64,000 nt of DNA from contig NZ_FWXR01000011.1 in the NCBI RefSeq assembly GCF_900176465.1, forward strand, positions 1 to 64,000, written 5' to 3'. The notes beneath the pieces were generated by a model. It did not search any database. It saw only the letters and a list, made by a program, of their open reading frames with translations, and had not been told where the DNA came from. A program made the translations under genes and the position numbers. The first letter of the stretch is position 1. Each line of letters begins with the position of its first letter. Positions 1 to 30,058 of the stretch are shown piece by piece. The DNA comes from Fulvimarina manganoxydans. Lineage in GTDB: Bacteria > Pseudomonadota > Alphaproteobacteria > Rhizobiales > Rhizobiaceae.

Positions 1-459
1 TCCGGCGTCCGCGTCGCCCGCGAACTGGATCGGCTGATAGTCGAGCATGGGAAGCCCAAGATGATCGTCAGCGACAACGGAAGCGAGTTTACCTCGAACG
101 CCATCCTGGGTTGGGCCGACCGGGCCAGGGTCGAGTGGCATTACATCGCACCGGGCAAGCCCATGCAGAACGGTTTCATCGAGAGCTTCAACGGTCGTCT
201 GCGCGATGAGCTTCTCAACGAGACACTGTTCTCGTCTCTCACCCATGCACGGGCAGCACTGGCGCTCTGGCGCGCCGACTACAACACGGCGCGTCCACAC
301 TCGCAGCTCGGCTGGAGCACTCCGGCAGAGTTCGCCGCAACCCTCAAACCGCGACGGGCTCTGGCGCTGCGCTCAGCCGACTGCTCCGCGCCGCCGCCCG
401 TCGCTCACCCCGCCCAGCCAAGCAACCCAACCGCCGGAAACGAACTTTCGGCTGGATAA
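1..459 (+). mobile_element. IS3-family transposase (OrfB, integrase core), C-terminal part
   Basis: The reading frame is open from base 1, so the gene begins left of the window. The visible part carries the end of a DDE (rve) integrase core: a VSDNGSEF motif holds the second catalytic Asp, and a [13 protein letters not shown] motif holds the catalytic Glu. The [14 protein letters not shown] ending is usual for IS3-family OrfB proteins. In that family OrfB is made by frameshifting from OrfA and catalyses strand transfer of the element. The frame ends at TAA 457-459. The element's right end probably lies just beyond, near 475, but no partner end is visible, so neither the terminal repeat nor the target duplication can be confirmed. 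Whether the complete element is active cannot be judged. Confidence 0.9.
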
Positions 460-15139: not shown

Positions 15140-15223
15140 GCGCGGCAACCACCGGCAACGGGCTTCGATCGACAATTGGTGAAGAGATCGCGGCCCCTTT
15201 TTGCGCCGCAAGGACCCAAGCTT

Positions 15224-16441
15224 ATGGAAGAATATTACAAGATTCGCCGCCTGCCGCCTTACGTCTTCGAAGAGGTGAACCGGCTGAAGGCCAGCGCCCG
15301 GGCGCGCGGCGCCGACATCATCGATCTCGGCATGGGCAATCCCGACCTGCCGACGCCGAGCTTCATCGTCGACAAATTGTGCGAGGTCGTGCGCGATCCG
15401 CGCTCCCATCGCTATTCGGCCTCGCGCGGCATTAACGGTCTGCGCAAGGCGCAAGCGGCCTTCTACGAGCGCCGTTTCGGGGTCAAGCTGGATCCGAACA
15501 GCGAGGTTGTGGCGACGCTCGGCTCGAAGGAGGGCTTCGCCAATATGGCCCAGGCGATCACCGCGCCGGGCGACGTGGTGCTCTGCCCCAACCCGACCTA
15601 TCCGATCCACGCCTTCGGCTTCATCATGTCGGGCGGAACGATCCGCTCGATCCCGGCCAAGCCCGACGAGGAGTATCTGCGGGCGATCGAGCGGGCCGTG
15701 GTCCATTCGATCCCCAAGCCCATTGCCGTGATTCTCAACTTCCCCGGCAATCCGACCGCCTATACGGCCGATCTCGACTTCTACCGGGACGTCGTCGCCT
15801 TCGCCAAGAAGCACGAAATCATCGTCCTGTCGGATCTCGCTTATTCCGAAATCTATTTCGACGACGTGCCGCCGCCTTCCATCCTTCAGGTCGAAGGGGC
15901 ACGGGACGTTGCGGTCGAATTCACCTCCATGTCGAAATCCTATTCGATGCCGGGTTGGCGCATCGGCTTTGCGGTCGGCAACAAGCGGCTTTGCGCGGCG
16001 CTCGGCCGGGTGAAGTCCTATCTCGACTATGGCGCCTTCACGCCGGTCCAGGTGGCGGCCGCGACCGCCATCAATCAGGGCGACGAGGCGGTCGCCGAGA
16101 TTCGCCAGACCTATAAGAAACGCCGCGATGTGCTCGTCGACGCCTTCGGCCGCGCGGGCTGGGACGTGCCGGCGCCGTCCTCGACCATGTTCGCCTGGGT
16201 TCCTCTGCCCGAGGCCTATCGCAAGATGGGCTCCTTGGAATTCTCCAAGCTCTTGGTCGAAAAGGCGGATGTCGCCGTCGCGCCGGGCGTCGGATTTGGC
16301 GAGCATGGCGACGATCATGTGCGCATCGCGCTGGTCGAGAACGAGCATCGCATCCGGCAGGCCGCCCGCAATATTCGCCGCTTCCTTGCAACCGAGGACG
16401 AAGAGCGTCAAAAGGTCGTGCCGATGAGGGCGCGGGCCTGA
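15224..16441 (+). CDS. AlaC-like class I/II aminotransferase
   Basis: A PLP-dependent fold-type I aminotransferase of 405 residues, closest by eye to the AlaC/LL-diaminopimelate aminotransferase-like group that in alphaproteobacteria sits upstream of hom. Motifs seen are DIIDLGMGNPDLPTP near the N-terminus, NFPGNPTA (substrate-binding Asn), SDLAYSEIYFD (PLP-binding Asp and Tyr), and SMSKSYSMPGWRIGF with the Schiff-base Lys and the phosphate-binding Arg. The start at 15224 has AGGA nine bases upstream; the frame is open 16 codons further. The substrate is probably alanine/pyruvate or an aspartate-family intermediate, inferred from the neighbouring hom. The 160 bases before hom hold no evident gene. 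Confidence 0.88.
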   Translation: MEEYYKIRRLPPYVFEEVNRLKASARARGADIIDLGMGNPDLPTPSFIVDKLCEVVRDPRSHRYSASRGINGLRKAQAAFYERRFGVKLDPNSEVVATLGSKEGFANMAQAITAPGDVVLCPNPTYPIHAFGFIMSGGTIRSIPAKPDEEYLRAIERAVVHSIPKPIAVILNFPGNPTAYTADLDFYRDVVAFAKKHEIIVLSDLAYSEIYFDDVPPPSILQVEGARDVAVEFTSMSKSYSMPGWRIGFAVGNKRLCAALGRVKSYLDYGAFTPVQVAAATAINQGDEAVAEIRQTYKKRRDVLVDAFGRAGWDVPAPSSTMFAWVPLPEAYRKMGSLEFSKLLVEKADVAVAPGVGFGEHGDDHVRIALVENEHRIRQAARNIRRFLATEDEERQKVVPMRARA

Positions 16442-16601: not shown

Positions 16602-17903
16602 ATGACCAAGCCCCTGCGCATCGGCATTGCCGGCCTCGGAACCGTTGGCGCGAGCCTCGCTCGCCTTCTCATTACCAAATCCGAGACCATCACCCGTCGC
16701 GCAGGTCGGCCGATCGAGATCGGCGCGGTTTCCGCGAGAGACAAGACGCGCGATCGCGGCGTCGACTTGAGCGCGCTCGCCTGGTTCGACGATCCGGTCA
16801 AGCTCGCTCAGGACGGCGAGATTGACGCGCTGGTCGAACTGATCGGCGGGTCGGAAGGCGCTGCACTCGATTGTGTCCGGGCGGCGCTGTCGCGGGGCCT
16901 GCCGGTGGTCACGGCCAACAAGGCGCTGCTCGCCCATCACGGCGTCGCGCTCGCGCGGCTCGCGGCCGAGAACGGCACCGAACTTCTCTACGAGGCGGCG
17001 GTCGCCGGCGGCATCCCGATCATCAAGGCGATGCGCGAGAGCCTGTCGGGCAACGAGGTCAGCCGCGTGACCGGTATCCTCAACGGCACCTGCAACTACA
17101 TGCTAACGCGCATGGAGCGCGAGAACCTCTCCTTCGAGGCCTGTCTGAGGGATGCCCAGGCGCTCGGCTATGCCGAGGCCGATCCGACCTTCGACATTGG
17201 AGGCTTCGACGCCGCCCACAAGCTCGCCATTCTCACCTCGCTCGCCTTTGGCACCGAGATCGACATCGATTCGGTCTATGTGGAAGGCATTCAATCGATC
17301 ACCGCCGAGGACATCGCGGCGGCGACCGAGCTCGGCTATACGATCAAGCTTCTCGCCGTCGCCCAGAAGACCGATACCGGCATCGAGCAGCGCGTTCATC
17401 CGACCATGATCCCGGCGGAAGCGGCGATGGCGCAGATTTCCGGCGTCACCAACGCCGTCACCGTCGACACCGATCTTCTCGGCTCGATCATGCTGGCCGG
17501 CCCCGGCGCCGGCGGCAATGCGACCGCCTCGGCGGTGCTCTCCGACGTCATGGATCTTGCGACCGGCGTCGTGCCGCCGACCTTCGCGGTGCCGCCGGAT
17601 CGTCTCGTGCCTTACGAGCGCGCTCGGATGCGGACCCATGAGGGCGGCTACTATATCCGCCTGTCGGTCCGCGACCGGGTCGGGGCCTTCGCCTCGATCG
17701 CGACGCGCATGGCGGAAAACGGCATTTCGCTGGAATCCATCGTCCAGCGCAAGGCGGCGGGCGTCGCCGATGTGGCGAGCGCCATGGTCGTGCTCGTCAC
17801 CCATGAGACGACCGAGGAGGCGATCCGCTTGGCGCTCAAGGCGATCTCGGAGGATGGCCATCTCTCGGGCGATCCCCAGATGATCCGGATCGAACATCTC
17901 TGA
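16602..17903 (+). CDS. hom: Homoserine dehydrogenase
   Basis: Hom reduces aspartate semialdehyde to homoserine with NAD(P)H, the branch point to threonine and methionine. The 433-residue protein has the N-terminal nucleotide-binding fold (GIAGLGTVGASLARLL), the VTANKALLAHHG catalytic-domain entry, the GILNGTCNYML and GYAEADPTFDIGGFDAAHKLAILTSLAFG core, and a C-terminal ACT domain from about residue 350 (VRDRVGAFASIATRMAENGISLESIVQ) that usually binds threonine for feedback inhibition. The length is normal. It lies between the aminotransferase and glpX, an order that is familiar in Hyphomicrobiales. Confidence 0.97.
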   Translation: MTKPLRIGIAGLGTVGASLARLLITKSETITRRAGRPIEIGAVSARDKTRDRGVDLSALAWFDDPVKLAQDGEIDALVELIGGSEGAALDCVRAALSRGLPVVTANKALLAHHGVALARLAAENGTELLYEAAVAGGIPIIKAMRESLSGNEVSRVTGILNGTCNYMLTRMERENLSFEACLRDAQALGYAEADPTFDIGGFDAAHKLAILTSLAFGTEIDIDSVYVEGIQSITAEDIAAATELGYTIKLLAVAQKTDTGIEQRVHPTMIPAEAAMAQISGVTNAVTVDTDLLGSIMLAGPGAGGNATASAVLSDVMDLATGVVPPTFAVPPDRLVPYERARMRTHEGGYYIRLSVRDRVGAFASIATRMAENGISLESIVQRKAAGVADVASAMVVLVTHETTEEAIRLALKAISEDGHLSGDPQMIRIEHL

Positions 17904-18130: not shown

Positions 18131-18164
18131 GCGCCATCGAACGATCCGGATCGTTACATGGCGC
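18131..18164. promoter_or_regulatory. 34-bp near-perfect palindrome upstream of glpX
   Basis: Outer arms GCGCCAT (18131-18137) and ATGGCGC (18158-18164) enclose inner arms AACGATCC and GGATCGTT (18140-18155), with only a two-base mismatch between inner and outer stems on each side. It is centred about 58 bases before the glpX start. It could be a dimeric operator or an mRNA leader hairpin. The rest of 17904-18205 shows no gene. Confidence 0.5.
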
Positions 18165-18205
18165 ATGAGGGCGATCACTTGTGCTCGCAAGGGAGGGGAA
18201 AGACG

Positions 18206-19168
18206 ATGGGCAAGGAAGCGCGAGCGCTGGATCGCACCTTCACGCTTGAGCTGGCGCGCGTGACCGAACATGCGGCGATCGCGGCGGCCAGGCTGCGCGG
18301 GCGCGGCGACGAAAAGGCCGCCGATCAGGCTGCGGTCGATGCCATGCGCCGCGAACTCGACACGCTTTCGATCGACGGCACCATCGTCATCGGCGAGGGC
18401 GAGAAAGGTGAGGCACCGGCGCTCTTCATCGGCGAAAGCGTCGGATCGGCCGAGGGGCCAGCGGTCGATGTCGCGCTCGACCCGCTCGAGGGCAAGACGG
18501 TCTGCGCCAAGAATCTGCCGAACTCCATCGCGGTGCTCGCCATGGCGCCGAAAGGCAGCCTCCTGAAGGTGCCGGATGTCTATATGGAAAAGCTCGCCAT
18601 CGGGCCGGGCTATCCGGCCGGCATCGTCTCCTTGACGAGAAGCGCGGAGGAGAACCTCACCGCGCTCGCCAAGGCCAAGGGCGTCGACGTCACGGAGATC
18701 ACCGCCTGCATTCTCGATCGCCCCCGCCATGGCCGGCTCATCGAGGAGGTGCGCGCAGTGGGCGCCGCAATCCGCCTGATCGGCGATGGTGACGTGGCCG
18801 GCGTAATCCATGCCGCCAATCCGGCCGAGACCGGCATCGACATCTATATGGGAATCGGCGGCGCGCCCGAGGGCGTCCTGGCTGCGGCCGCGCTTCGCTG
18901 CACCGGCGGGCAGATGGAAGGCCGGCTGCAACTGACGACGCCGGAAAAGCGCGCCCGCGCCGATGCGCTCGGCATCACCGAGCCGAACCGCATCTATTCG
19001 GTGGAGGAAATGGCCTCCGGTGACGTGGTCTTCGCCGCGACCGGCGTCACGGACGGCAATCTTCTCGACGGCGTGCGCTTCCAGCGCGACCGCATCACGA
19101 CCCATACGCTGATGATGCGCTCGGCCACCCGCACGATCCGGGAAATGCACGCCCAGCACTATATCTGA
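18206..19168 (+). CDS. glpX: Class II fructose-1,6-bisphosphatase
   Basis: GlpX removes the 1-phosphate of fructose 1,6-bisphosphate in gluconeogenesis and, in some alphaproteobacteria, in the Calvin cycle. The 320-residue protein has the class II motifs IDGTIVIGEGEKGEAP, VDVALDPLEGKT (metal-binding Asp/Glu), a PRHGRLIEEVRAVGAAIRLIGDGDV segment and GIGGAPEGVLAAAALRC. The start at 18206 is supported by a strong GGAGGGG eight bases upstream; the sixteen codons before it are unlikely to be translated. In related genomes recJ usually follows glpX. Here the next gene is ureA on the opposite strand, which suggests a rearrangement between 19168 and 19243. Confidence 0.95.
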   Translation: MGKEARALDRTFTLELARVTEHAAIAAARLRGRGDEKAADQAAVDAMRRELDTLSIDGTIVIGEGEKGEAPALFIGESVGSAEGPAVDVALDPLEGKTVCAKNLPNSIAVLAMAPKGSLLKVPDVYMEKLAIGPGYPAGIVSLTRSAEENLTALAKAKGVDVTEITACILDRPRHGRLIEEVRAVGAAIRLIGDGDVAGVIHAANPAETGIDIYMGIGGAPEGVLAAAALRCTGGQMEGRLQLTTPEKRARADALGITEPNRIYSVEEMASGDVVFAATGVTDGNLLDGVRFQRDRITTHTLMMRSATRTIREMHAQHYI

Positions 19169-19242
19169 GCTGGGAGTCGGCCGGACGCCATCTCCTCGCG
19201 ACGCAAGGGTCTCGTCGCGGCCGGGCCGCGCGAACCAAACGG

Positions 19243-19545
19243 TCAGCGGATTGGTTCGTGAACCGTCACCAGCTTGGTGCCGTCCGGAAAGGTCGCTTCG
19301 ACCTGGACGTCGTGGATCATTGCGGCAATGCCCTCCATCACCTGATCGCGCGTAATGACCTTGGCGCCGGCTTCCATCAGATCGGCGACGGAGCGTCCGT
19401 CGCGGGCGCCTTCGACCACGAAATCGGTGATCAGCGCGATCGCCTCCGGGTGGTTGAGCTTCACCCCACGGGCGAGGCGCTTGCGCGCGACCTCCGCCGC
19501 CATGGCGATGAGCAGCTTGTCCTTTTCGCGCGGCGTGAGTTGCAT
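19243..19545 (-). CDS. ureA: Urease gamma subunit
   Basis: UreA is the small structural subunit of nickel-dependent urease, which hydrolyses urea to ammonia and carbamate. The 100 residues match the full family length and pattern: [44 protein letters not shown] and [18 protein letters not shown]. Ribosome binding site GAGGGA precedes the ATG. It is the last gene of the minus-strand urea operon. The expected ureB and ureC do not follow; instead glpX converges on it with only 74 bases between. The gene itself looks intact, so the catalytic subunit must be encoded elsewhere, or the urease is no longer functional. Confidence 0.97.
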
Positions 19546-19591
19546 GCGTCTTTTTCCCTCGTCGGCTCATGCCCTCGATGATTGGGCGATT

Positions 19592-20431
19592 TCATAGCGA
19601 CCATATCCGCGGCAAGGGCGCGATGGCCAGTCGGTTCAAAAGTGGGACCAGCGTCTTTCTGAGAGCGAAGCCGCCCTCGGCGACGAGCCGGATCACAAGA
19701 CAGCCTTCGACGAGGCTCGCCCCGCCGCGATCGCTGATGATCTCGCGGACCTCGCCGATCAGCGCCTCTGCGCGCGGTGAGACGAGAAGGAGGCTTGCAA
19801 AGGCTCTTGCCCCGCCAAGCCCGGCCGCCGCAGCGGTGATGCGCGCGATGTCGGGCCCGAGCCGCAGGGCGTCGGCATAGACGAGACGCCCCGCGATCCG
19901 CACCCGCCAGCGATCGGCGAGAAAAGCCTTGCAAAGCGTCTCGCCCATCGCCTCACGGCCAAGAATCACCGGCTCGCATAAAAGCGCTTCGGCGCCTTCG
20001 GCAAGATCGACATCAAGGCGGCGGGAGAGGACGCCGCCTTCGAAGAGGATCGTCTCCTGGGGCAGATAGGCCAGATGCGCGCCGCTCTCGGCCGACAGCC
20101 GTGTCGCAACTTCAGCCTGTCCGCCGCTTGCGCGATAGACCCGCTCGCAGGCCTGGGTGGTGACGGTGAGGGCCGCGCCGGCGTCGAGGTGAAAGACCTG
20201 GGTCAGACGGTCGCCGCCTGTCAGCCCGCCTGACGTGTTGATGAGGACCGCCTCGATCGAGGGCTGGGGAAGCCGGGGAAAGCGCAGCTTGAGGCAGCCT
20301 TCCTGGCGCAGATCGGCAAGTTTCGTCCGCTCACCGAGACGGCGGACCCTCGCCTCTGCTGATCCCCGTGCCCGCTGAAGCGCGGCGGTCTCAGCGCCGT
20401 CGTCGCAGCGGGCGAGAAGGGAAGGGGGCAT
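19592..20431 (-). CDS. ureD: Urease accessory protein UreD
   Basis: UreD binds apo-urease and, with UreF and UreG, delivers nickel to the active site. The 279-residue length is usual. Recognisable stretches are CLKLRFPRLP near the N-terminus, VLINTSGGLTGGDRL, LTVTTQACERVYRA, the HLAYLPQETILFEGG strand and GREAMGE, all typical of UreD. AAGG lies before the ATG. It lies between urtE and ureA in one transcript, 36 and 46 bases from its neighbours. Its partners ureE, ureF and ureG are not in the window. A UreD without UreF/UreG would not be expected to work, so a second urease locus is likely. Confidence 0.94.
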   Translation of the reverse strand: MPPSLLARCDDGAETAALQRARGSAEARVRRLGERTKLADLRQEGCLKLRFPRLPQPSIEAVLINTSGGLTGGDRLTQVFHLDAGAALTVTTQACERVYRASGGQAEVATRLSAESGAHLAYLPQETILFEGGVLSRRLDVDLAEGAEALLCEPVILGREAMGETLCKAFLADRWRVRIAGRLVYADALRLGPDIARITAAAAGLGGARAFASLLLVSPRAEALIGEVREIISDRGGASLVEGCLVIRLVAEGGFALRKTLVPLLNRLAIAPLPRIWSL

Positions 20432-20467: not shown

Positions 20468-21160
20468 TCACACCGTCAGATGCCGGCGAACTTCCTCCCT
20501 GTCCAGGCTTTCGGCCGGGCCTTCGTGAACGATCTCGCCGCGATCCATGATATAGACCTTGTCGGCGAGCTCCCGGCAGAAGTCGAGATATTGTTCGACC
20601 AGGAGGACCGCGAGGCCGGCCTCTTCTTTCAGGAAACGGATCGCCCGGCCGATATCCTTAATGATCGAAGGCTGGATGCCTTCGGTGGGCTCGTCGAGGA
20701 CGAGGAGCTTCGGCCGCGTCACCAGCGCCCGGCCGATGGCGAGCTGCTGCTGCTGGCCGCCCGAGAGATCGCCGCCGCGCCGACCGAGCATGTCTTTGAG
20801 CACCGGAAACAGCTCATAGACGTGGTCGGGGATCGTCTTGTCGGATTTCAGCGGCGCAAAGCCTGTCTGAAGATTTTCCTTCACCGTCAGAAGCGGAAAG
20901 ATCTCGCGGCCCTGGGGCACGAAGCCGATGCCCTTTCGCGCCCTCGCATAGGGTGCCGAGCGGCCGAGGGCTTCGTCGCCGAGGCGGATTTCGCCCTTGC
21001 GGATCGCCTGCTGACCGACGATGGCGCGCAGGAGCGAGGTCTTGCCGACACCGTTGCGGCCAAGGACGCAGGTGATCTCGCCCTGTTTCGCGTCGAGCGA
21101 GACATTCTTCAGCGCCTGGGCGGCGCCGTAATAGAGATCGACATTGGAGACTGTCAGCAT
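20468..21160 (-). CDS. urtE: Urea ABC transporter ATP-binding protein UrtE
   Basis: UrtE is one of the two ATPases of the high-affinity urea importer UrtABCDE and belongs to the branched-chain amino acid (LivF) class. The 230 residues contain Walker A (LGRNGVGKTS), the Q-loop region, the ABC signature LSGGQQQQLAIGRAL, Walker B (KLLVLDEPTEG) and the switch His region (LVEQYLDF). The start at 21160 gives the usual N-terminus MLTVSNVDLYYG; the frame is open 16 codons further upstream but there overlaps urtD. It lies 37 bases after urtD and ends 36 bases before ureD. Confidence 0.96.
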   Translation of the reverse strand: MLTVSNVDLYYGAAQALKNVSLDAKQGEITCVLGRNGVGKTSLLRAIVGQQAIRKGEIRLGDEALGRSAPYARARKGIGFVPQGREIFPLLTVKENLQTGFAPLKSDKTIPDHVYELFPVLKDMLGRRGGDLSGGQQQQLAIGRALVTRPKLLVLDEPTEGIQPSIIKDIGRAIRFLKEEAGLAVLLVEQYLDFCRELADKVYIMDRGEIVHEGPAESLDREEVRRHLTV

Positions 21161-21197
21161 TGTCTGTTTCCCATCAGGGCCTGTCGCGACGCTTCGC

Positions 21198-22208
21198 TCA
21201 TCGCCCAAGATACACCTCGATTACCCGTGGATCGCTCGACACATGGTCGAGCGTGCCTTCCGAGAGCACCGTTCCCTCGTGAAGGCAGGTGACCTTGACG
21301 CCGAGAGCGCGGACGAAATGCATGTCGTGTTCGACGACGACGACGGAATGCTTCTCGGCGATCTCGCGCAGGAGCCGCGCCGTCTCTTCCGTTTCGGCGT
21401 CGGTCATGCCGGCCACCGGTTCGTCGACGAGGAGGAGTTCGGGGTCCTGGGCGAGCAGCATGCCGATCTCCAGCCATTGCTTCTGGCCGTGGGAGAGGTC
21501 GGCGGCGAGGCGGTGGCGCTTGTCCACCATGCGGGTGGTGTGAAGGATCTCCTCCACCCGGTCGTTCTCTTCGCCCGAACGCTTGTGAAGCAGTGCCTCG
21601 AAGACCGAGCGCGAGCCGGCGAGCGAGAGGCGGAGATTCTTTTCCACCGTCAGCCCTTCGAAGACCGTCGGCTTCTGAAACTTGCGACCGATCCCCATAG
21701 AGGCAATCGACGCCTCGTCATGCTTGGTGAGATCGACGTCGCCGGCAAAGAAGACGTCGCCGGAATCGGGCCGGGTCTTGCCGGTGATGATATCCATCAT
21801 CGTCGTCTTGCCGGCCCCGTTCGGGCCGATGATGGCGCGCATTTCGCCGCGCTGGACGACGAGGGAGAGATTGTTGATGGCCTTGAAGCCGTCGAAGGTC
21901 TTGTTGACCCCGTCGAGATAGAGAAGCGTCTCGCGGCGGGCGCCAAGCCGGGCTTCCTTCTTCGCCTGTTCGACGGCGCGTTCGGTCGCGTAAGGATGCG
22001 GCGAGACGCGGGGGACCGTGATTGGCTCCGATGCCGGTTCGGGCGCGGGCTTTGGCGCGGCGGCGTGCGATGGCGCCAGGCCGTCTGCCGGCGCCGTCTC
22101 CGCTCCTTGCGGCTCTTGAAGAATGCGCGCCTGTTCGGCCGCCTCGTCCCTTCCATCGCCGGCGGGAAGAGGATCGCGGGTCGTGTTCATCTCGTCCATC
22201 CTCGTCAT
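21198..22208 (-). CDS. urtD: Urea ABC transporter ATP-binding protein UrtD with N-terminal extension
   Basis: UrtD is the LivG-like ATPase of the urea importer. The ATPase domain occupies about residues 90-336, with Walker A IIGPNGAGKTT, signature LSHGQKQWLEIG, Walker B ELLLVDEPVAGM and the switch region VVVVEHDMHFV. The protein is 336 residues, longer than the roughly 250 usual in the family. The extra N-terminal 85 residues are rich in Ala, Pro and Glu and look disordered. The start at 22208 is supported by an ATGA overlap with the urtC stop, so the extension is probably translated. There is no in-frame ATG between residue 7 and the ATPase core. Confidence 0.95.
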   Translation of the reverse strand: MTRMDEMNTTRDPLPAGDGRDEAAEQARILQEPQGAETAPADGLAPSHAAAPKPAPEPASEPITVPRVSPHPYATERAVEQAKKEARLGARRETLLYLDGVNKTFDGFKAINNLSLVVQRGEMRAIIGPNGAGKTTMMDIITGKTRPDSGDVFFAGDVDLTKHDEASIASMGIGRKFQKPTVFEGLTVEKNLRLSLAGSRSVFEALLHKRSGEENDRVEEILHTTRMVDKRHRLAADLSHGQKQWLEIGMLLAQDPELLLVDEPVAGMTDAETEETARLLREIAEKHSVVVVEHDMHFVRALGVKVTCLHEGTVLSEGTLDHVSSDPRVIEVYLGR

Positions 22209-23371
22209 TCCGCCGGGCTCGCGGCAAGGTTGGGATCGTTGCCGGTGCCTTCCGACTCGCCTTTTTCGCGGTTTTTCGCGCGGCGCCGGGCTTTCAGCGC
22301 GTCCCAGCCATGATCGATCGTGCCGACGATGCCGCGCGGCAGGAAGATCGTGACGACGACGAAGAGGCCGCCGAGGACGAAGAGCCAGTATTCCGGCGCG
22401 AGCCCCGTGAAGACGCTCTTGCCGTAATTGACCAGAAGCGCGCCGATGACCGGGCCGAGCAGGGTGCCGCGTCCGCCGACGGCAGCCCAGACGACGATCT
22501 CGATCGAATTGACCGGGGCGAACTCGCCCGGATTGATGATCCCGACCTGGGGCACGTAAAGCGCGCCGGCGATGCCGGCCATGACGGCGGAGAGGGTGAA
22601 GGCGAAGAGCTTCACATATTCCGGCCGCCAGCCGATGAAGCGCGTGCGGCTTTCGGCGTCACGGACGGCGATCATCAGATCGCCGAGCTTGGAGCGAATG
22701 ATCGCGCCGACGCAGAGGACGGCGAGGGCGAGCGCGATGCAGCTGGCGGCAAAGAGCGCGGCGCGGGTCGTATCGGCCTGGATCGGATAGCCGAGAATGT
22801 CCTTGAAGTCGGTGAGGCCATTATTGCCACCAAAGCCCATATCGTTTCGGAAGAAGGCAAGCAGCAGCGCATAGGTCATCGCCTGGGTGATGATCGAGAG
22901 ATAGACCCCGGTCACGCGGCTTCGGAAGGCGAAATAACCGAAGACGAAGCCGAGCAGGCCGGGCACGACCATGACCATCAGCGCGGCGAACCAGAACTGA
23001 TCGAAGCCATACCAATACCAGGGCAGCTCCTGCCAGTTGAGGAAGACCATGAAGTCGGGAAGCTCGGGATTGCCATAGACCCCGCGCGCCCCGATCTGGC
23101 GCATCAGATACATGCCCATCGCATAGCCGCCGAGGGCGAAGAAGGCGCCGTGACCGAGCGACAGGATGCCGAGATGGCCCCAGACGAGATCGAGGGCGAG
23201 CGCCAGCATCGCATAGCAGACATATTTGCCGATCAGCGGAACCAGATAGGACGGCACGTGCAGCGGATGGTTCGCCGGCAAAGCGAGATTGGCGAGGGGC
23301 ACGAGAATGGCGGCGGCGACAAGCGCCGCGACGAGGATCCAGACCCGGGCGCCGAGATATCGGATGATCAT
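22205..23371 (-). CDS. urtC: Urea ABC transporter permease UrtC
   Basis: UrtC is the LivM-like inner-membrane permease of the urea importer. The 388-residue protein is hydrophobic with about ten predicted helices and shows the family stretches ALALDLVWGHLGILSLGHGAFFALGGYAMGMYL, NNGLTDFKDI, AVRDAESRTRFIGW and VWAAVGGRGTLLGPVIGA. The last twenty or so residues are charged and low in complexity. The start at 23371 overlaps the urtB stop (ATGA). The frame continues far upstream, but that part is out-of-frame shadow of urtB. The urtC stop overlaps the urtD start, so urtB, urtC and urtD are translationally coupled. Confidence 0.95.
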   Translation of the reverse strand: MIIRYLGARVWILVAALVAAAILVPLANLALPANHPLHVPSYLVPLIGKYVCYAMLALALDLVWGHLGILSLGHGAFFALGGYAMGMYLMRQIGARGVYGNPELPDFMVFLNWQELPWYWYGFDQFWFAALMVMVVPGLLGFVFGYFAFRSRVTGVYLSIITQAMTYALLLAFFRNDMGFGGNNGLTDFKDILGYPIQADTTRAALFAASCIALALAVLCVGAIIRSKLGDLMIAVRDAESRTRFIGWRPEYVKLFAFTLSAVMAGIAGALYVPQVGIINPGEFAPVNSIEIVVWAAVGGRGTLLGPVIGALLVNYGKSVFTGLAPEYWLFVLGGLFVVVTIFLPRGIVGTIDHGWDALKARRRAKNREKGESEGTGNDPNLAASPAE

Positions 23372-25014
23372 GCGTCGACGAAGCGTCCCTTCTGGGCGAA
23401 GAGGCCCCGCGGCCGCTTCTGGATGAACAGGATGATGAGGACGAGGACGACGATCTTGCCGAGGACCGCGCCGGCGAAGGGTTCGAGGAACTTGTTGACG
23501 ACGCCGAGCGTCATGGCGCCGACGAGGGTTCCCCACAGATTGCCGACGCCGCCGAAGACGACGACCATGAAGCTGTCGATGATGTAGCCCTGGCCGAGAT
23601 TGGGCGAGACATTGTCGATCTGGCTGAGGGCGACGCCGGCGATCCCTGCAATGCCAGAGCCGAGCGCGAAGGTCATGGCGTCGACCCAGGGGGTGCGGAT
23701 GCCCATGGCCGAGGCCATGCGCCGGTTCTGGGTCACGGCCCGCATCTGGAGGCCGAGCGAGGTCTTGTTGAGGACGGCCAGCAGCGCGACGAAGACGATG
23801 ATCGCGAAGACGATGATCCAGAGGCGGTTCCAGGTGACCTGCATCAAGCCGACTTCGAAGGCCCCCGACATCCAGTCGGGATTGCCGACCTCGCGGTTGG
23901 TGGGCCCGAAAATGGTGCGCACGGCCTGTTGCAGGATCAGCGAGACGCCGAAGGTGGCGAGCAGGGTCTCCAACGGCCGTCCATAAAGGAAGCGGATCAG
24001 CCCGCGCTCCATGACGAGGCCGACGAGACCCGAGACCAGAAAGGCGAGCGGCAGGGCGATGGCGAGCGACCACTCGAACAGGCCCGGCACATTGGTGCGG
24101 ATGAACTCCTGAACCACGAAGGTCGTGTAGGCGCCGAGCATGACCATCTCGCCATGGGCCATGTTGATCACCCCCATGACGCCAAAGGTGATGGCAAGGC
24201 CGATCGCGGCGAGCAAGAGAACCGAGCCGAGCGAGAGCCCGTACCACACATTCTGGGCCTGGTTCCAAAAGGCGATGTTGTTCTCCACCTGGGCGATCGC
24301 CGAAAGCGCGGCGGAGCGGGCCTCCGGCGTCTGCGCGCTGTCGGCGAAGCGGGAGAGCATGGCGAGGGCTTCGCGGTCGCCGCGCGCGGCGAGGATGCGC
24401 GCTTCCTCCGCCTTTTCCGCTTCCGGCGCATCGGAGGCGAGAATGGCGCTGGCGCGCGCCTCTGCCATCGCGGTCTTGACGGCCGGGTCCTCCTCGGCGG
24501 CGATCGCTTCGGTGAGGGGGGCGATCATCTCGGGATCGGCTTCGGAAAAGAGGGTCTGGGCGGCCCGCAGGCGCTGGGCCGGATTGTCCGAGCGCAAGGT
24601 GAGGGAGCCGAGGGCCAGCGTCACCGCATTGCGGATGGAATTCTTGACGCGGACCTTTTCCATCTCGCCGCGGGGCGCGGTGCCGGCCGTTTCGCCGGTC
24701 ATGGGGTCGAGAAGATCGTATTCGTCGCCGTCGCGCGTTGCGATGAAGACCGCCTGATCGCCTTCGCGCCAGTAAAGATCGCCGTCTCTGAGGGCACGCA
24801 AGGGCCGAGCGACCGCCGGATCGCCGGTTCCGGCGAGTTCGGAAATGACCGCCTCGGTCTCGTCATAGCTCTGCTTGCCGCCGAACTTCTGGACGATGGC
24901 CGCCGGATCGCCGCTCGCGGTCGTGGCAGGTTCCTGGGCCGTGGCAGGCGCTGAGAGGAGCGAGCCGAAGAGAAGGGCGAGGAGGGCAAGAAGCCAAGGC
25001 ATCGGACGGATCAT
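23368..25014 (-). CDS. urtB: Urea ABC transporter permease UrtB
   Basis: UrtB is the LivH-like permease of the urea importer. UrtB proteins differ from other LivH permeases by a long periplasmic N-terminal region, seen here: a signal-like segment PWLLALLALLFGSLLSAPATAQ is followed by about 220 polar residues with HEAT-like helical character (residues 30-250). The permease domain follows with NMAHGEMVMLGAYTTF, SGLVGLVMERGLIRFLYGRP, GIRTPWVDAMTFALGSGIAGIAGVAL and VFGGVGNLWGTLVGA. The start at 25014 (MIRPMPW) is preferred over one 34 codons upstream because it begins the signal peptide. It is separated from urtA by 144 bases that contain a strong hairpin. Confidence 0.94.
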   Translation of the reverse strand: MIRPMPWLLALLALLFGSLLSAPATAQEPATTASGDPAAIVQKFGGKQSYDETEAVISELAGTGDPAVARPLRALRDGDLYWREGDQAVFIATRDGDEYDLLDPMTGETAGTAPRGEMEKVRVKNSIRNAVTLALGSLTLRSDNPAQRLRAAQTLFSEADPEMIAPLTEAIAAEEDPAVKTAMAEARASAILASDAPEAEKAEEARILAARGDREALAMLSRFADSAQTPEARSAALSAIAQVENNIAFWNQAQNVWYGLSLGSVLLLAAIGLAITFGVMGVINMAHGEMVMLGAYTTFVVQEFIRTNVPGLFEWSLAIALPLAFLVSGLVGLVMERGLIRFLYGRPLETLLATFGVSLILQQAVRTIFGPTNREVGNPDWMSGAFEVGLMQVTWNRLWIIVFAIIVFVALLAVLNKTSLGLQMRAVTQNRRMASAMGIRTPWVDAMTFALGSGIAGIAGVALSQIDNVSPNLGQGYIIDSFMVVVFGGVGNLWGTLVGAMTLGVVNKFLEPFAGAVLGKIVVLVLIILFIQKRPRGLFAQKGRFVDA

Positions 25015-25075
25015 GAAGGCAAGGCCCCGGTCGGTCGGTTTGTCCGGCGGTCCCGCGAGGGATGTCGGGCGTTTG

Positions 25076-25111
25076 AAAAGGGCGGAGCGGCCGATCACCA
25101 GCCGCTCCGCC
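25076..25111 (-). terminator. Hairpin between urtA and urtB
   Basis: GGCGGAGCGGC (25081-25091) pairs perfectly over 11 bp with 25101-25111 across a nine-base loop. On the minus strand it is followed by CTTTTC. It probably acts as a partial terminator or 3' stabiliser, giving more of the binding protein UrtA than of the membrane complex. Confidence 0.55.
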
Positions 25112-25158
25112 GGCACCCCTTGGGAGGACAGGGTGCGGGAGACGCAAAGACGGAAGCC

Positions 25159-26466
25159 TTACTGGGCTGCGGCGGTCTCACCCAGGCACTTGCCGGCCTC
25201 GGTGTCGTAATTGCCGCATTTCAGCTCGACCCAGTCGGCCTTCAGCTTCTTAGATTCCGGCAGGAAGTCCGACCAGGCATCGCCCGGCACGAGGTCGTCG
25301 GTCTCGGAGACGACGTCGAACTGGCCTTCGTCGTTGATCTCGCCAATGAGGACCGGCTTGGTGATGTGGTGGTTCGGCAGCATGACCGAGGTGCCGCCGG
25401 TCAGATTCGCCTGCTCAATGCCCGGCAAGGCGTCGATGACGGCGTCTGCGTCGGTGGTGCCAGCCTTCTCGACCGCCTTCACCCACATGTTGAAGCCGAT
25501 ATAGTGGGCTTCCATGGGGTCGTTGGTGACGCGCTCGTCATTGCCCGTGAACTCATGCCACTTGGCGATGAAGTCCTCGTTCTCGGGCGTGTCGACGGAC
25601 TGGAAGTAGTTCCAGGCAGCAAGATGGCCGACCAGCGGTCCGGTGTCGATGCCGGCCAGCTCTTCCTCGCCCACAGAGAAGGCGACGACCGGGATGTCGG
25701 TCGCTTCGATGCCCTGATTGGCGAGTTCCTTATAAAAGGGAACGTTCGCGTCGCCATTGATGGTCGAGACGACGGCGGTCTTCTTGCCGGTCGAGCCGAA
25801 TTCCTTGATCTTGGCGACTTCCGTCTGCCAGTCGGAGAAGCCGAAGGGCGTGTAGTTGACGATGATGTCCTCGGCGGCGACGCCCTTGTCCTTCAGATAC
25901 TGCTCGAGAATCTTGTTGGTCGTGCGCGGATAGACATAGTCGGTGCCTTCCAGCACCCAGCGCTCGACGCCCTCGTCCATCAGATAGTCGACGGCAGGTA
26001 TCGCCTGCTGGTTCGGCGCGGCACCCGTATAGAAGACGTTGCGCTCTGATTCCTCGCCCTCATACTGGACGGGATAGAACAGGATCGAATTCAGCTCCTT
26101 GAAGACCGGCAGGACGGACTTGCGGGAGACCGACGTCCAACAGCCGAAGACCGCCGCGACCTCGTCCTGGCTGATCAGTTCGCGCGCCTTTTCGGCAAAG
26201 AGCGGCCAGTCGGATGCGGGATCGACGACCACTGCCTCAAGGGGTCGGCCAAGAACGCCGCCCTTCTTGTTCTGCTCTTCGATGAGCATCAGCATGGCGT
26301 CTTTGAGGGTCGTCTCCGAGATCGCCATGGTGCCCGATAGCGAATGGAGAATACCGACCTTGATCGGCTCGCCGCTCGGCGTCTGGGCCATGGCGCTTGT
26401 GGCCATGGTGGACCCGATCGTTGCCGCCGCGGCGAGATTGCGCAGCCATGTCAGGGATGACGTCAT
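25159..26466 (-). CDS. urtA: Urea ABC transporter substrate-binding protein UrtA
   Basis: UrtA is the periplasmic urea receptor. The 435-residue precursor has a signal peptide (LAAAATIGSTMATSAMAQ, cleavage near residue 27) and the type I periplasmic-binding fold of the LivJ/FmdD class: VGILHSLSGTMAISETTLKDAMLMLIEEQN at the mature N-terminus, AVFGCWTSVSRKSVLPVFKELNSILFYPVQYEGEE, VNYTPFGFSDWQTEVAKIK and VAAWNYFQ-like core segments (here LAAWNYFQSV). AGGAG lies six bases before the ATG. It is the first gene of the operon, read from a sigma-54-type promoter at 26521-26540, which implies nitrogen control by NtrC. Confidence 0.97.
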   Translation of the reverse strand: MTSSLTWLRNLAAAATIGSTMATSAMAQTPSGEPIKVGILHSLSGTMAISETTLKDAMLMLIEEQNKKGGVLGRPLEAVVVDPASDWPLFAEKARELISQDEVAAVFGCWTSVSRKSVLPVFKELNSILFYPVQYEGEESERNVFYTGAAPNQQAIPAVDYLMDEGVERWVLEGTDYVYPRTTNKILEQYLKDKGVAAEDIIVNYTPFGFSDWQTEVAKIKEFGSTGKKTAVVSTINGDANVPFYKELANQGIEATDIPVVAFSVGEEELAGIDTGPLVGHLAAWNYFQSVDTPENEDFIAKWHEFTGNDERVTNDPMEAHYIGFNMWVKAVEKAGTTDADAVIDALPGIEQANLTGGTSVMLPNHHITKPVLIGEINDEGQFDVVSETDDLVPGDAWSDFLPESKKLKADWVELKCGNYDTEAGKCLGETAAAQ

Positions 26467-26520: not shown

Positions 26521-26540
26521 ATTGCAAAGGCCGTGCCAAT
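26521..26540 (-). promoter_or_regulatory. Sigma-54 (RpoN) promoter of the urt-ure operon
   Basis: Read on the minus strand the site is TTGGCACG-GCCT-TTGCA, an exact match to the sigma-54 consensus TGGCACG-N4-TTGC with correct spacing of the -24 GG and -12 GC. The -12 GC lies at about 26524-26525, which puts transcription start near 26512 and leaves a leader of about 46 bases before urtA. A TGCA-N7-TGCA dyad at 26710-26724 upstream is a weak candidate activator site. The rest of 26541-26792 shows no gene. Confidence 0.85.
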
Positions 26541-26792: not shown

Positions 26793-27878
26793 TCAGACGC
26801 CGCGCTCGGCGCTTTCATGGGCGGTCATGATTGCCTGCAAAGTCGCCTCAATCGCGGCGAGGAGCGGATCGGGGCCTTCCTCGGCTGCATGAGCGAGGTA
26901 ATCGAGCACTTCGATGTCGGAGAGGGCTGCGCGCAGGGCGGGGGCGACCAGCGGGTCCCCCATGCGACCGCTGGCCTCAAGGCGAGTTTCGGCGACCCGA
27001 AGGGCGCCGAGGACAGGGCGCAATTCGGCGAGAGCTCGTTCCGTCTCGGTCCTGTTCGCGCTTGCCGGCGAAGCGAGAAAGCCGCGAGCTTCGGCTCGAC
27101 CGAGAAGGGCTGCGATGGCGGTCAGGCGCTCGCCTTCGGATGCAAGGGCGACGACGTCACGGGACTTCGGCGGCAGATCGGGGTCGATAGCGGGCCCATA
27201 GGGAGCCTTGGCGAGGCCCTGGGTCGTCATCGGATCGAGACCGTCGCGGCGCTCTCCGACCGTGAGGCTCGGGCGAAGATCGAGCGCGATCGGCACGCTT
27301 TGGACATCGGCGGGACGAACGGAAGGCGCGAAATGCGGCAGCGGCACGGGGCGCATGGCGGCATAGGCCTCGGCAAGGCTGCGGCGGGTGCGCGTCGTCT
27401 GCGCATCGGTAAGGGCTGTGAGCGTCTCGGACGAACCGGAGCCGATGCGATCGAGATAGCTGCGCATGGTCGATACGTAGTTTTCGGTGCCGGCGCAGAG
27501 ATAAGGTGCCGGCGCCTGGCCGAGAAAGTCGGAGAGGTCTGTCACGATCCGATCGGCGATCCAGCGGCTGTCGGAATCACCGGCCCAGCTCGCTCGTCCC
27601 CGGGCGCGCGCAAGACCCGTAGCGATCCGCAGGGATTTTGCCTCCTCGCCGCTCCGCCGGCCCGAGGCGGGCGTGAGGACAAGGCGGCCGGGAAGGCGTT
27701 CGTCGCCGCGTCGGGCGAGGGCCCTGGCCTCCGCGATTTTTGCGAAAGGGCCCGATCGGACATCGGCTAGCTTCTCATGGAAGCGTGCCGCACATTCGCT
27801 CGCCGATCGGCTGCCGGCGAGCGCGGGTGGGACCAGCGCAAAAGCAAAGCACAGAAAGACGAGCGGGAAGCGCGGCAT
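26793..27878 (-). CDS. Secreted protein of unknown function
   Basis: I do not recognise this 361-residue protein. A clear signal peptide (LVFLCFAFALVPPALAG) indicates export. The mature part is Ala/Arg/Glu-rich and mostly helical by composition, with three cysteines (near residues 29, 124 and the signal peptide) and no known catalytic motif. A central region (about 170-215) is Pro-rich and may be a linker between two helical domains. It lies alone on the minus strand between the urea operon promoter and the AsmA gene, preceded by 353 bases that hold a repeat copy. Base composition and codon use look like its neighbours, so it seems a resident gene. Confidence 0.75.
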   Translation of the reverse strand: MPRFPLVFLCFAFALVPPALAGSRSASECAARFHEKLADVRSGPFAKIAEARALARRGDERLPGRLVLTPASGRRSGEEAKSLRIATGLARARGRASWAGDSDSRWIADRIVTDLSDFLGQAPAPYLCAGTENYVSTMRSYLDRIGSGSSETLTALTDAQTTRTRRSLAEAYAAMRPVPLPHFAPSVRPADVQSVPIALDLRPSLTVGERRDGLDPMTTQGLAKAPYGPAIDPDLPPKSRDVVALASEGERLTAIAALLGRAEARGFLASPASANRTETERALAELRPVLGALRVAETRLEASGRMGDPLVAPALRAALSDIEVLDYLAHAAEEGPDPLLAAIEATLQAIMTAHESAERGV

Positions 27879-27935
27879 GGCAGAGATCCGGTGGCTGTCG
27901 CCGGCAGCGATCGCCGAACCGCCGGCGGAAGCTCG

Positions 27936-28040
27936 ATAGAGTGAAACGCGACCGAGTTGGGTCGCATGCTCGCTCTAAAGCCTTGTCTTTCGTAAGCCGT
28001 TATCCAAAAAGTCGATCAACTTTTGGGCGTCTTACTCGAG
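27936..28040. repeat. Two-hairpin intergenic repeat, copy 2 (diverged)
   Basis: The order of elements matches copy 1 at 7818-7918. An imperfect AGAGTGAAACGCGACC / GGTCGC...GCTCT stem comes first, then an AAGCCTTGTCTTT linker, then a CCAAAAAGT / ACTTTTGG stem. The inner stem of copy 1 is GGAAAAGT / ACTTCTCC, so both arms changed together. The remainder of 27879-28231 shows no gene. Confidence 0.5.
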
Positions 28041-28231
28041 GCATCCCGGCGGACCGATGACATGCTGCGCGGCCCATTCGCCCGCCATGCTCGCATGGAG
28101 CCCTTTCTCTCAGGTGAACGAACCATTTCCTAAGCGAGGGGATGGACTGGGAACCGATGAAGTGAAGGCGCCGGTCGCGACGGATCAGAGGCTGGACAAC
28201 ACTTCGTCGGTAGAGCCCTGGGCCCTGTCCT

Positions 28232-30058
28232 TCAGTGCCCGGAACTCTTCCTGGAAGGTCTCGTCACGACCCTCGGATTGGGCCATAGGCCTTCCAGGCT
28301 AAAATTCACCGGTTGCGAGGCGGTGAATTCCTCGGGCGTTCCGGCCGAGGCCGTCAGAGAAAATTCCTCATAGCTACCCAAGAGTTGGAGCCAACGATCC
28401 GTGAGGGATACCCGGCCATGAGCCGTTAGGACGCCGCTTTGATCTTTGATTTCCAACGCATCCACCGCCACCCGTGGACCGTGGCCGGACAACTCGACTT
28501 CCATCCGCGTAAAGGGCATGGAGCCTTCCACGAGGCCGGCCATGAGGGGCTGCGTTCCCGCTTTCGAAAACACTTTGGGGTCGAAGCCGGACACGATGCC
28601 GTTGTGAACGGTGAGATCGGCTTTCAGCTCGGCGCTGGACAGGATGGTCTCCCAATCCCGCGCGTCGGCGGTGAGCTCTGCATCGAACTGGCCCTGGCCG
28701 GTCAGCTGCACATTGGTGTCGCCAAGCCGGGATACCAGACGTCCCATGTCGATGCCCGAGCCTGTCCAGTGGCCGGCAAGCCCCGGCACCTTGCCATTGA
28801 TCAGCGCGATGCGGCCATAGGTGCGCCCGCCGAACAGGGATGCGTCGCCCACATCCAGCGTCGCCTTGCCGTCCGAGACGCCGATGACCGCCGCCACGTC
28901 CTGCAATGGCAGCGAGCCGATTAACGCCTCGCCCGCCGACAGGCGGATATTGAGATCGATCGCGTCGGAGAAAGCGACGTCGATCGGCCGGCGCAGATTG
29001 AAGGGGCCGGTCGGCGGCGGCACGACCGCCCGGGCGATCGGGCCGAAATCGAAACTCGGATAGGCGAGGGTGCCGCTCAGCCGGCGACGATCGAGATCGA
29101 ATTCCATCGCCCCCTGGCCGGTCGAGCCGGCGATGGAAAGCGCCGCATTGCCGAAAGCGAGGGTCGAGCCGGCCAGCGCCATGTCGCCATTGAGCGCGAC
29201 AGAGCCAAGTTCGGGAACCATCATCTGCGGCGAGGCGAGCCATCCGACCATGCGAGAGAAGGAATCGCCCGCGATGGAAAACCGGCCGTCCAGGCGCCGC
29301 AGCGAGCCGAAATCGAGCGTGCCGTCGAAATTGGCCGAAAGCGGAGGTGTCGCCAGGCTGAAGGACACCGCACTGGCGCCGGCCTCTTCGAGATTGGCGG
29401 TCGAGGCGATCGACATGTCGAGATCGGCCGGCTGGCCGTTCCAGATGAAGCTGCCATCGACGCGAACGGCGCTGCGATCGGAAGTGCGCGCCACCGTGAA
29501 ATTGGCGTTGCTGAAGCCGTTGGGGCTGATCCCGGTCTGTGTCGGACGCCAGACCCCATCGCGGACTTCGAGCACCTGAAGCTTGTCGAGGCGGGTGATG
29601 GCGGCGCGGGTGAGACGCTCGAATTCGTTGAAGGCCTCGATCGAAGGCGAGACCGGACCGGCAGGCCTTAGGCCCGTCTCGATCGGGTTAGATGCGTCTC
29701 TCTGGGCCTCGGCGGGCCGATATTCCGGCCGGATCAGCACGATCCGCGCAATGGTCGCCTTGCCGAACAAGGCATCGACGGGATCGAGATCGGCGACGAT
29801 CCGATCGACGGAAAAGCCGATCGCCGGTCCGATCTCCACATGGTCGGCGATGAGGCGCGTGCGCGGCATCACCGAGAAGCGAACCGGCCCGCCGATCGCG
29901 ACCTCCGCACCTGTCAGGGCGCGAATGCGCTGGGCAAGTTCCCGCTCCGCATCGCCGGACGCCAGGACAAAGCGCGGCGCGAGCATCGCCACCGCCACGA
30001 TGACGGCTGCGAAAAGCCCGATCCCCAGCCACCGGCCTTTGCGGCGCTTCGACAGCAT
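28232..30058 (-). CDS. AsmA-family protein
   Basis: AsmA-like proteins are anchored in the inner membrane and span the periplasm as a beta-groove thought to carry phospholipids toward the outer membrane. The 608-residue protein has an N-terminal membrane anchor (WLGIGLFAAVIVAVAMLAPRFVL, residues 10-32), followed by the family's first module (ELAQRIRALTGAEVAIGGPVRFSVMPRTRLIADHVEIG). A long beta-strand-rich region with repeated LDF/LNG/GSA-type strands ends in the conserved AsmA_2-type module (AELKADLTVHNGIVSGFDPKVF, PFTRMEVELSGHGPRVAVDALEIKDQSGVLTAHGRVSL). Ribosome binding site GGAGTAGGGG lies directly upstream. No partner gene is adjacent. Confidence 0.9.
   Translation of the reverse strand: MLSKRRKGRWLGIGLFAAVIVAVAMLAPRFVLASGDAERELAQRIRALTGAEVAIGGPVRFSVMPRTRLIADHVEIGPAIGFSVDRIVADLDPVDALFGKATIARIVLIRPEYRPAEAQRDASNPIETGLRPAGPVSPSIEAFNEFERLTRAAITRLDKLQVLEVRDGVWRPTQTGISPNGFSNANFTVARTSDRSAVRVDGSFIWNGQPADLDMSIASTANLEEAGASAVSFSLATPPLSANFDGTLDFGSLRRLDGRFSIAGDSFSRMVGWLASPQMMVPELGSVALNGDMALAGSTLAFGNAALSIAGSTGQGAMEFDLDRRRLSGTLAYPSFDFGPIARAVVPPPTGPFNLRRPIDVAFSDAIDLNIRLSAGEALIGSLPLQDVAAVIGVSDGKATLDVGDASLFGGRTYGRIALINGKVPGLAGHWTGSGIDMGRLVSRLGDTNVQLTGQGQFDAELTADARDWETILSSAELKADLTVHNGIVSGFDPKVFSKAGTQPLMAGLVEGSMPFTRMEVELSGHGPRVAVDALEIKDQSGVLTAHGRVSLTDRWLQLLGSYEEFSLTASAGTPEEFTASQPVNFSLEGLWPNPRVVTRPSRKSSGH

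Follow-up and report, generated by a model that had tools for sequence, protein, structure and literature searches.

Why does a urea operon with a complete importer, ureD and ureA end after ureA, and where is the rest of the urease? The window, by which we mean the whole stretch of 64,000 nucleotides analyzed here, is contig C41, positions 1-64000, of Fulvimarina manganoxydans (G000; a 54-contig assembly of 4.82 Mb with a listed completeness of 98.22 and a contamination of 0.01). The original prediction noted that ureB and ureC do not follow ureA, and that recJ does not follow the neighboring glpX, and it proposed a rearrangement breakpoint in the short spacer between the two genes.

The window locus and the four pieces of the urease set

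The urea genes and their neighbors, in window coordinates, are:

15176-16441: aminotransferase-like gene, named by eye
16602..17903, plus strand: hom, homoserine dehydrogenase (PRK06349, 540 bits)
18158..19168, plus strand: glpX, class II fructose-bisphosphatase (TIGR00330, 319 bits, above cut-off)
19169..19242, unstranded: 74-bp spacer separating the glpX stop from the convergent ureA stop, where the urt-ure fragment now ends
19243..19545, minus strand: ureA, urease gamma subunit, 100 aa (NCBIfam PRK13241, 172.6 bits, cut-off 123)
19592..20431, minus strand: ureD, urease accessory protein (PF01774, UreD, 170 bits)
20468..21208, minus strand: urtE ATPase (TIGR03410, 343.6 bits, above cut-off)
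21198..22208, minus strand: urtD ATPase (TIGR03411, 378 bits, above cut-off)
22205..23371, minus strand: urtC permease, named from position alone as the open reading frame between urtB and urtD, with the ATG that overlaps the urtB stop chosen as start
23368..25116, minus strand: urtB permease, from open reading frame and gene order, 76% to Aurantimonas aggregata
25159..26466, minus strand: urtA, urea ABC transporter binding protein (TIGR03407, 557 bits, above cut-off)
26523..26538, minus strand: sigma-54 (-24/-12) promoter-like site, TGGCAC-N5-TTGCA with 0 mismatches, lying 72 bp before urtA
26793..30058, minus strand: upstream neighbors, a protein without Pfam match (26793-27878) and an AsmA-family protein (28232-30058)

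Profile matches and reading frames confirm the basic description of the locus: the urtA-E-ureD-ureA run ends 74 bp from convergent glpX, and ureA, the last gene of the fragment, is intact, covering positions 1-100 of the 100 in the PRK13241 profile. Gaps inside urt-ureDA are all 46 bp or less. The spacer is GC-rich and folds on either strand, in a calculation that carries no shuffle control.

The absence of ureB, ureC and recJ holds at this locus but not in the genome. There is one match each for ureB (urease beta, C37:1697), ureC (urease alpha, C20:449833), ureF (C25:248660) and ureG (C25:249235), ureE immediately precedes ureF on C25 (by translation and Pfam), and the ureA of the window is the sole match for the gamma subunit; recJ is at C20:278695, away from glpX. 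The gamma, beta and alpha subunits are separate genes, with one match above cut-off in the genome to each of PF00547, PF00699 and PF00449, and the accessory genes ureD, ureE, ureF and ureG are all present. The structural urease genes thus stand at separate, distant loci in one genome, as a dispersed set. The whole set occupies four contigs as urtABCDE-ureDA, ureJ-ureB, ureC and ureE-F-G, the searched ure genes being intact and in single copy, and ureB, ureC and ureEFG do not lie together elsewhere but on three different contigs.

On C37, ureB is preceded by ureJ (PF04955, 171 bits) and followed by a fliJ-like gene (no Pfam match) and then a ctrA-like gene, both named by eye; the ureJB piece begins 1.1 kb from the contig end, with ureB 1.7 kb from the contig start. 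The neighbors of ureC on C20 are the opposite-strand gene C20_171, a DUF29 gene and the opposite-strand gene C20_251, with no Pfam match for either C20_171 or C20_251. After ureEFG on C25 comes an amidohydrolase-family gene (PF01979), here called guaD.

A probable ancestral cluster and its breaks in relatives

In Aurantimonas aggregata (locus L054), a single stretch, about 17 kb long, runs urtA-B-(C)-D-E-ureD-ureA-ureJ-ureB and continues as C20_171(opposite)-ureC-DUF29-C20_251(opposite)-ureE-ureF-ureG-guaD, where urtC was left out of the queries, and where two extra genes (cyclase-like and carboxymuconolactone decarboxylase-like) lie between ureB and C20_171. All queried cluster genes of the four G000 pieces have the same order and orientation there. 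The two genomes have the same genes, the same order within pieces and the same neighbors (C20_171, DUF29, C20_251, guaD), but A. aggregata is contiguous whereas G000 is cut at A/J, at B/C20_171 and at C20_251/E. Since the four pieces are united in A. aggregata, in the same order, G000 appears to carry a dismembered ancestral cluster, and in this respect the proposal of a rearrangement was right.

We consider it highly probable that an ancestral urtABCDE-ureDA-ureJB-ureC-ureEFG-guaD cluster was split by several ordinary chromosomal rearrangements. The resulting pieces in G000 would be (1) urtABCDE-ureDA, (2) ureJB, (3) ureC with its ancestral neighbor genes, and (4) ureEFG-guaD; every piece retains the ancestral inner order, and the searched ure genes are single and intact. 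The A. aggregata spacers are about 450-600 bp at A-J (depending on the choice of ureJ start), 2568 bp at B-C and 1729 bp at C-E, compared with 21-22 bp inside D-A and J-B, and the breaks in G000 and the other split genomes fall only at spacers that are already wide in this intact cluster. Neutral breakage outside genes would look alike, and thus breaks at wide spacers are no proof of selection. The breaks may have been tolerated because intact relatives already had ureC and ureEFG behind opposite-strand genes and wide spacers, and each piece would thereby have been able to be its own transcription unit.

An intact cluster is also found more widely among named relatives. Loci L055-L058 and L066 (Aureimonas, and a strain labelled Aurantimonas) keep D-A-B-C-E-F-G together with C20_171 between B and C, and ureJ was not found in these five loci. 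The closest named UreD matches among those listed are Aurantimonas aggregata and Aureimonas, at 52-57% identity. UreA, B and C are on the same fetched stretch in 79 of the best 80 of at least 338 confirmed UreD matches, a non-random set of named loci from which near-identical records are possibly left out; in the exception, L130, a contig of 6 kb breaks off behind ureB.

To put a frequency on the split we use 151 genomes of the family, evenly drawn from a larger group and including G000. Gamma and beta each turn up in 126 of them, UreF in 121 and alpha in 132, the last count taking in weak hits on other amidohydrolases; A, B and C are all present in 123 genomes. Both the A-B and the B-C distance are within 8 kb in 117 of these 123 (G001 being counted as linked solely via ureB pieces on two contigs). 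The six unlinked genomes are G000, G022, G027, G020, G122 and G130, the last of them uninformative, with ureB 194 bases from a contig start. Only G000 and G022 (2/123) have A, B and C all apart. For the accessory genes, ureF and ureC are separated (by over 12 kb, or by lying on different contigs) in 7 of the 118 genomes among these 123 that also have a listed UreF: G000, G020, G027, G042 (18 kb), G070 (110 kb), and two uninformative ones, G011 and G097, in which the contig starts 2.3 and 0.5 kb from ureC.

G022 and G124 belong to the same genus as G000, so that three genomes of the genus can be compared. The G022 split is visible on a single contig of 3,705,815 bases (C4), with ureA at 465 kb, ureB at 844 kb and ureC at 3008 kb; that is, ureA and ureB are 0.38 Mb apart and ureB and ureC 2.2 Mb (shorter if the contig is circular), in pieces ureDA (465 kb), ureJB (844 kb) and ureC-ureEFG-guaD (3.0 Mb), with urt at 245 kb. 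Relatives of the AsmA-family gene (48%) and of the 26793-27878 gene (42%) of the window are directly upstream of ureD in G022. The remaining split genomes are intermediate. On one contig of G027 we find C20_251-ureEFG-guaD at 413 kb, ureDA-JB at 550 kb and ureC at 724 kb, while urt is on a different contig; the G020 set falls into three places, with ureDA, ureJB-ureC and ureEFG as its pieces; and in G122 ureDA is separate from ureJB-ureC-ureEFG. A DarT-family ADP-ribosyltransferase gene (PF14487; L049:8499-9143) lies near the downstream side of ureA in G122, a hint that this junction holds a toxin-antitoxin or defence pair.

Across G000, G022, G027, G020 and G122, D-A, J-B and E-F-G are each unbroken. 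In both G000 and G022 the ureJB piece has the same neighbors, a fliJ-like and a ctrA-like gene, so this common junction predates the separation of the two species. On the other hand, C20_251 has been kept with ureC in G000 and with ureE in G027, and because the partner differs, the C/E breaks of these two genomes are distinct.

A tree of RecJ, Hom and the aminotransferase (RecJ alone for G022, G124, G021 and G123) places G000 with (G022, G124), with supports of 0.996 and 1.000, and G027 with G020/G122 (0.926). Concatenating UreA, C, D, E, F and G gives a tree that joins G000 with G022 (1.000) and G027 with A. aggregata (0.953). The tree of UreC alone conflicts, with weak support, pairing G022 with A. 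aggregata (0.756) and G000 with G020/G122 (0.301); as it separates G000 from G022, it is the concatenated tree and synteny that carry the case for a shared history of the pieces. Hand parsimony on the RecJ+Hom+aminotransferase and concatenated trees, with rejoining disallowed, would call for at least six breaks: at A/J at least one (concatenated tree) or two, at B/C at least two, and at C/E at least three.

The sister of G022, G124, has no scattered set. It carries a compact ureD-A-B-C-E-F-G operon (G124:C25:1-6400, L045), in which there is no ureJ match, and which falls with G021/G123, at 0.990 in the concatenated tree and at 0.436 in the tree of UreC alone. Its urt genes (G124:C23, L168) are divergent, UrtA being at 41%. 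The native urease set of G124 has likely been lost and replaced through transfer.

Control, function and rival explanations

The site upstream of urtA was scored against what we take to be the sigma-54 -24/-12 consensus, and an equal score is reached in 0.4% of 2000 random draws of 450 bp from the window, draws over the site itself included. The same site is found 70-72 bp before urtA in G022, G027 and A. aggregata, that is, in 4/4 genomes with G000. Allowing 0-2 mismatches, no such site was found before ureJ, ureC or ureE in G000, G022 and A. aggregata, and none before ureD and ureC in G027 or before ureD in G022. A regulator common to all pieces was considered and dropped, as scans with the sigma-54 and NtrC-like consensus are clear for urtA only.

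Other conserved blocks lie upstream of the remaining pieces. The divergent C20_171/ureC spacer contains a promoter-like block, GAAGACAAGC...TATG (L001, about 1390-1425), which by eye is in 7/8 aligned genomes, weaker in Aureimonas and absent in G022. Upstream of ureJ there is a dyad, CGCGACCCAAnYCGGGGCGC (G000:C37:1036-1055, L005), present by eye in 6/6 of the Aurantimonas-like loci aligned (L005, L043, L046, L050, L052, L054). It stands 30-50 bp before the ureJ start in G000, and farther from the chosen start, and changed, in G022; its pattern, written after the alignment, has no other occurrence in the 2.42 Mb scanned. The dyad could be an operator or leader for ureJ, which is of the HupE/UreJ family. 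An RNA element before ureJ was also considered and is not claimed: single-strand folds do not beat shuffled sequences (z -0.87 to +0.78), and Rfam reports no match up to E 5 in G000 and five below-cut-off matches in A. aggregata. Rfam does report 5_ureB_sRNA (107-119 bits) antisense to the 5′ part of ureC at L044, L050, L052 and L054, which makes 4/4 ureC-bearing loci of the 8 loci searched; we set these matches aside as probably a matter of protein-coding conservation, an antisense RNA being the less probable reading.

Taken together, we infer that the ureJB, ureC and ureEFG pieces had their own promoters before parting. The urease of G000 is most likely expressed from at least four predicted transcription units, only urt-ureDA among them standing behind a perfect sigma-54 promoter-like site. 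Import and ureDA would be under nitrogen (sigma-54) control and the other pieces on promoters of their own, and the separately transcribed subunits would assemble into a normal (UreABC)3 nickel urease.

Was the separate control itself selected? The splitting would then be adaptive, with nitrogen-regulated import, UreD and UreA gating a constitutive pool of UreB, UreC and UreEFG, an arrangement to which the sigma-54-like site upstream of urt-ureDA only, and the own conserved upstream blocks of ureC and ureJ, would be well suited. The same comparisons make this rather doubtful: ureDA is unlinked to urt in G022, G027, G020 and G122, and thus the gate is not conserved, and the ureC block and the ureJ dyad are also present in A. 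aggregata, where the cluster is intact.

One could also read the break-up as a step toward loss, with the enzyme no longer made; in favor of this, same-genus G124 lacks the native genes and carries a compact, divergent set. We regard such decay as unlikely, given what the genes themselves have retained. All of ureA-G are stop-free in both G000 and G022, and dN/dS between the two (NG86) is well below 1 throughout: 0.10 for ureA, 0.08 for ureB, 0.07 for ureC, 0.23 for ureD, 0.16 for ureE, 0.23 for ureF and 0.14 for ureG, the values for ureB, ureD, ureE and ureF being rough as their dS is >1. Purifying selection on the ure genes is supported by these estimates. UreC residues 4-570 align with solved urease alpha chains, and the motifs HIH, KLHED, HTDT, HTEGAGGGH, CHHL and SDSQAMGR, whose residues we take to be the metal ligands and the carbamylated lysine of the urease active site, are located where expected, between 135 and 360 (chain 8hcn_C has KIHED for KLHED and HSDT for HTDT). 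The retained motifs, the reading frames and the low dN/dS point to a urease in G000 that probably works.

Less likely still is a single recent rearrangement at 19169-19242, perhaps via an insertion sequence, that took ureBC-EFG and recJ at once. Both expected followers are indeed gone at this junction, and recJ is, as had been claimed, the usual follower of glpX, its match lying 0.26-1.65 kb from that of glpX in 5/5 glpX-keeping relatives (7 searched). The aminotransferase-hom-glpX order of the window is retained in G027, G020 and G122, where it continues as aminotransferase-hom-glpX-recJ. There is no glpX match in G022 and G124, the five other searched relatives having the gene. In G000, G022 and G124, recJ stands in a common glpX-free context with a purL-like gene nearby (two additional genes lie between the two in G000). 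This context being glpX-free in all three genomes of the genus, the parting of glpX and recJ was probably in the genus ancestor. About 11 genes around recJ, recJ included, are common to G000 and G022 in the same order, which counts against complete genome shuffling.

The missing urease genes, moreover, are on three other contigs in different contexts, and the ureJB junction is common to G022; one breakpoint for both lost followers is not supported. The original prediction had named relatives with a working split urease and the same junction as what would speak against it, and this is half the case: G022 does have the split, but the gene after its ureA is of the ornithine cyclodeaminase family and not glpX. 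With three genomes of the genus to compare, either of the two ureA junctions, with glpX in G000 or with the ornithine cyclodeaminase-family gene in G022, may be the older, and to that extent a recent event at the spacer retains some room.

An insertion sequence at the ureA/glpX junction was suspected as well, and none was seen in the G000 stretches compared, which are part of the genome. Window positions 1-459, at the start of contig C41, encode, judging the translation by eye, a C-terminal portion of a transposase of the IS3-like (integrase-core) type. Within those stretches there is no other copy of this fragment, no second copy of the 74-bp spacer save a 15-base match, and no copy of the first 700 bases of C37 near any piece, with a 29-base match on C20. 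With no IS or repeat copy near any urease piece in the stretches compared, we dropped an IS-mediated junction.

Finally, that the cluster is whole in the cell and only looks split through contig breaks, chimeras or contamination, as a draft of 54 contigs with ureB 1.7 kb from the start of C37 and an IS3-like fragment at the end of the window's contig might lead one to suspect, is hardly credible and largely refuted: ureA, ureC and ureEFG are at least 19 kb inside their contigs and flanked by other genes, the listed contamination is 0.01, and the G022 split at three places on one 3.7 Mb contig, together with the ureB/fliJ-like junction common to both genomes, makes an assembly artefact very unlikely.

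Scattered urease genes and what the split means

The canonical cluster, of the K. aerogenes type, has the order ureDABCEFG (PMC6737895), and G000 has the same genes in the same relative order within its pieces. Scattered urease genes are described for cyanobacteria (PMC6737895, section 12), and Synechocystis PCC 6803 is given there as the case in which all ure and urt genes are completely scattered. Like those cyanobacteria, G000 spreads a complete urease set over several loci; unlike Synechocystis, it keeps D-A, J-B and E-F-G, and a whole urtABCDE linked to ureDA, and in its family the intact cluster and intermediates also exist. Nostoc PCC 7120 has ureDAB and ureC parted by one gene, with ureEFG at a second locus (PMC6737895, section 12). 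There, as in G000, the structural genes are broken from ureEFG and a foreign gene comes between B and C, but Nostoc holds A, B and C in one locus and G000 does not. According to the same source, inactivation of ureC gave urease-defective mutants in Synechococcus PCC 7002 and Synechocystis (PMC6737895), and thus scattering is compatible with function.

We found no report of scattered urease genes in Alphaproteobacteria in the open literature, mostly without subscription papers, and we do not claim absence from print. G000 is a proteobacterial case of scattered urease genes, otherwise described for cyanobacteria, and few of its relatives have such an arrangement.

An operon that encodes a multi-subunit enzyme would be expected to stay whole. 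We put forward a more far-reaching reading only tentatively, as a possibility we would not bet on: a small alphaproteobacterial clade may have repeatedly and independently (in at least six breaks) dismembered its urease cluster with the enzyme still working, so that the subunits of an obligate 1:1:1 complex would come from distant loci under different control (UreA and UreD from a nitrogen-controlled sigma-54 promoter, the catalytic subunit from its own promoter), and one species' set would have been replaced by a transferred compact operon.

There is also a practical warning, that annotation by locus could score G000 as urease-negative. Intact cluster, intermediates, full split and compact operon (the last a likely replacement) all occur among relatives in one family, and wide spacers with opposite-strand genes are the apparent precondition for a break. 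These relatives make it possible to test if the genes of a protein complex have to stay side by side, and what comes before a break.
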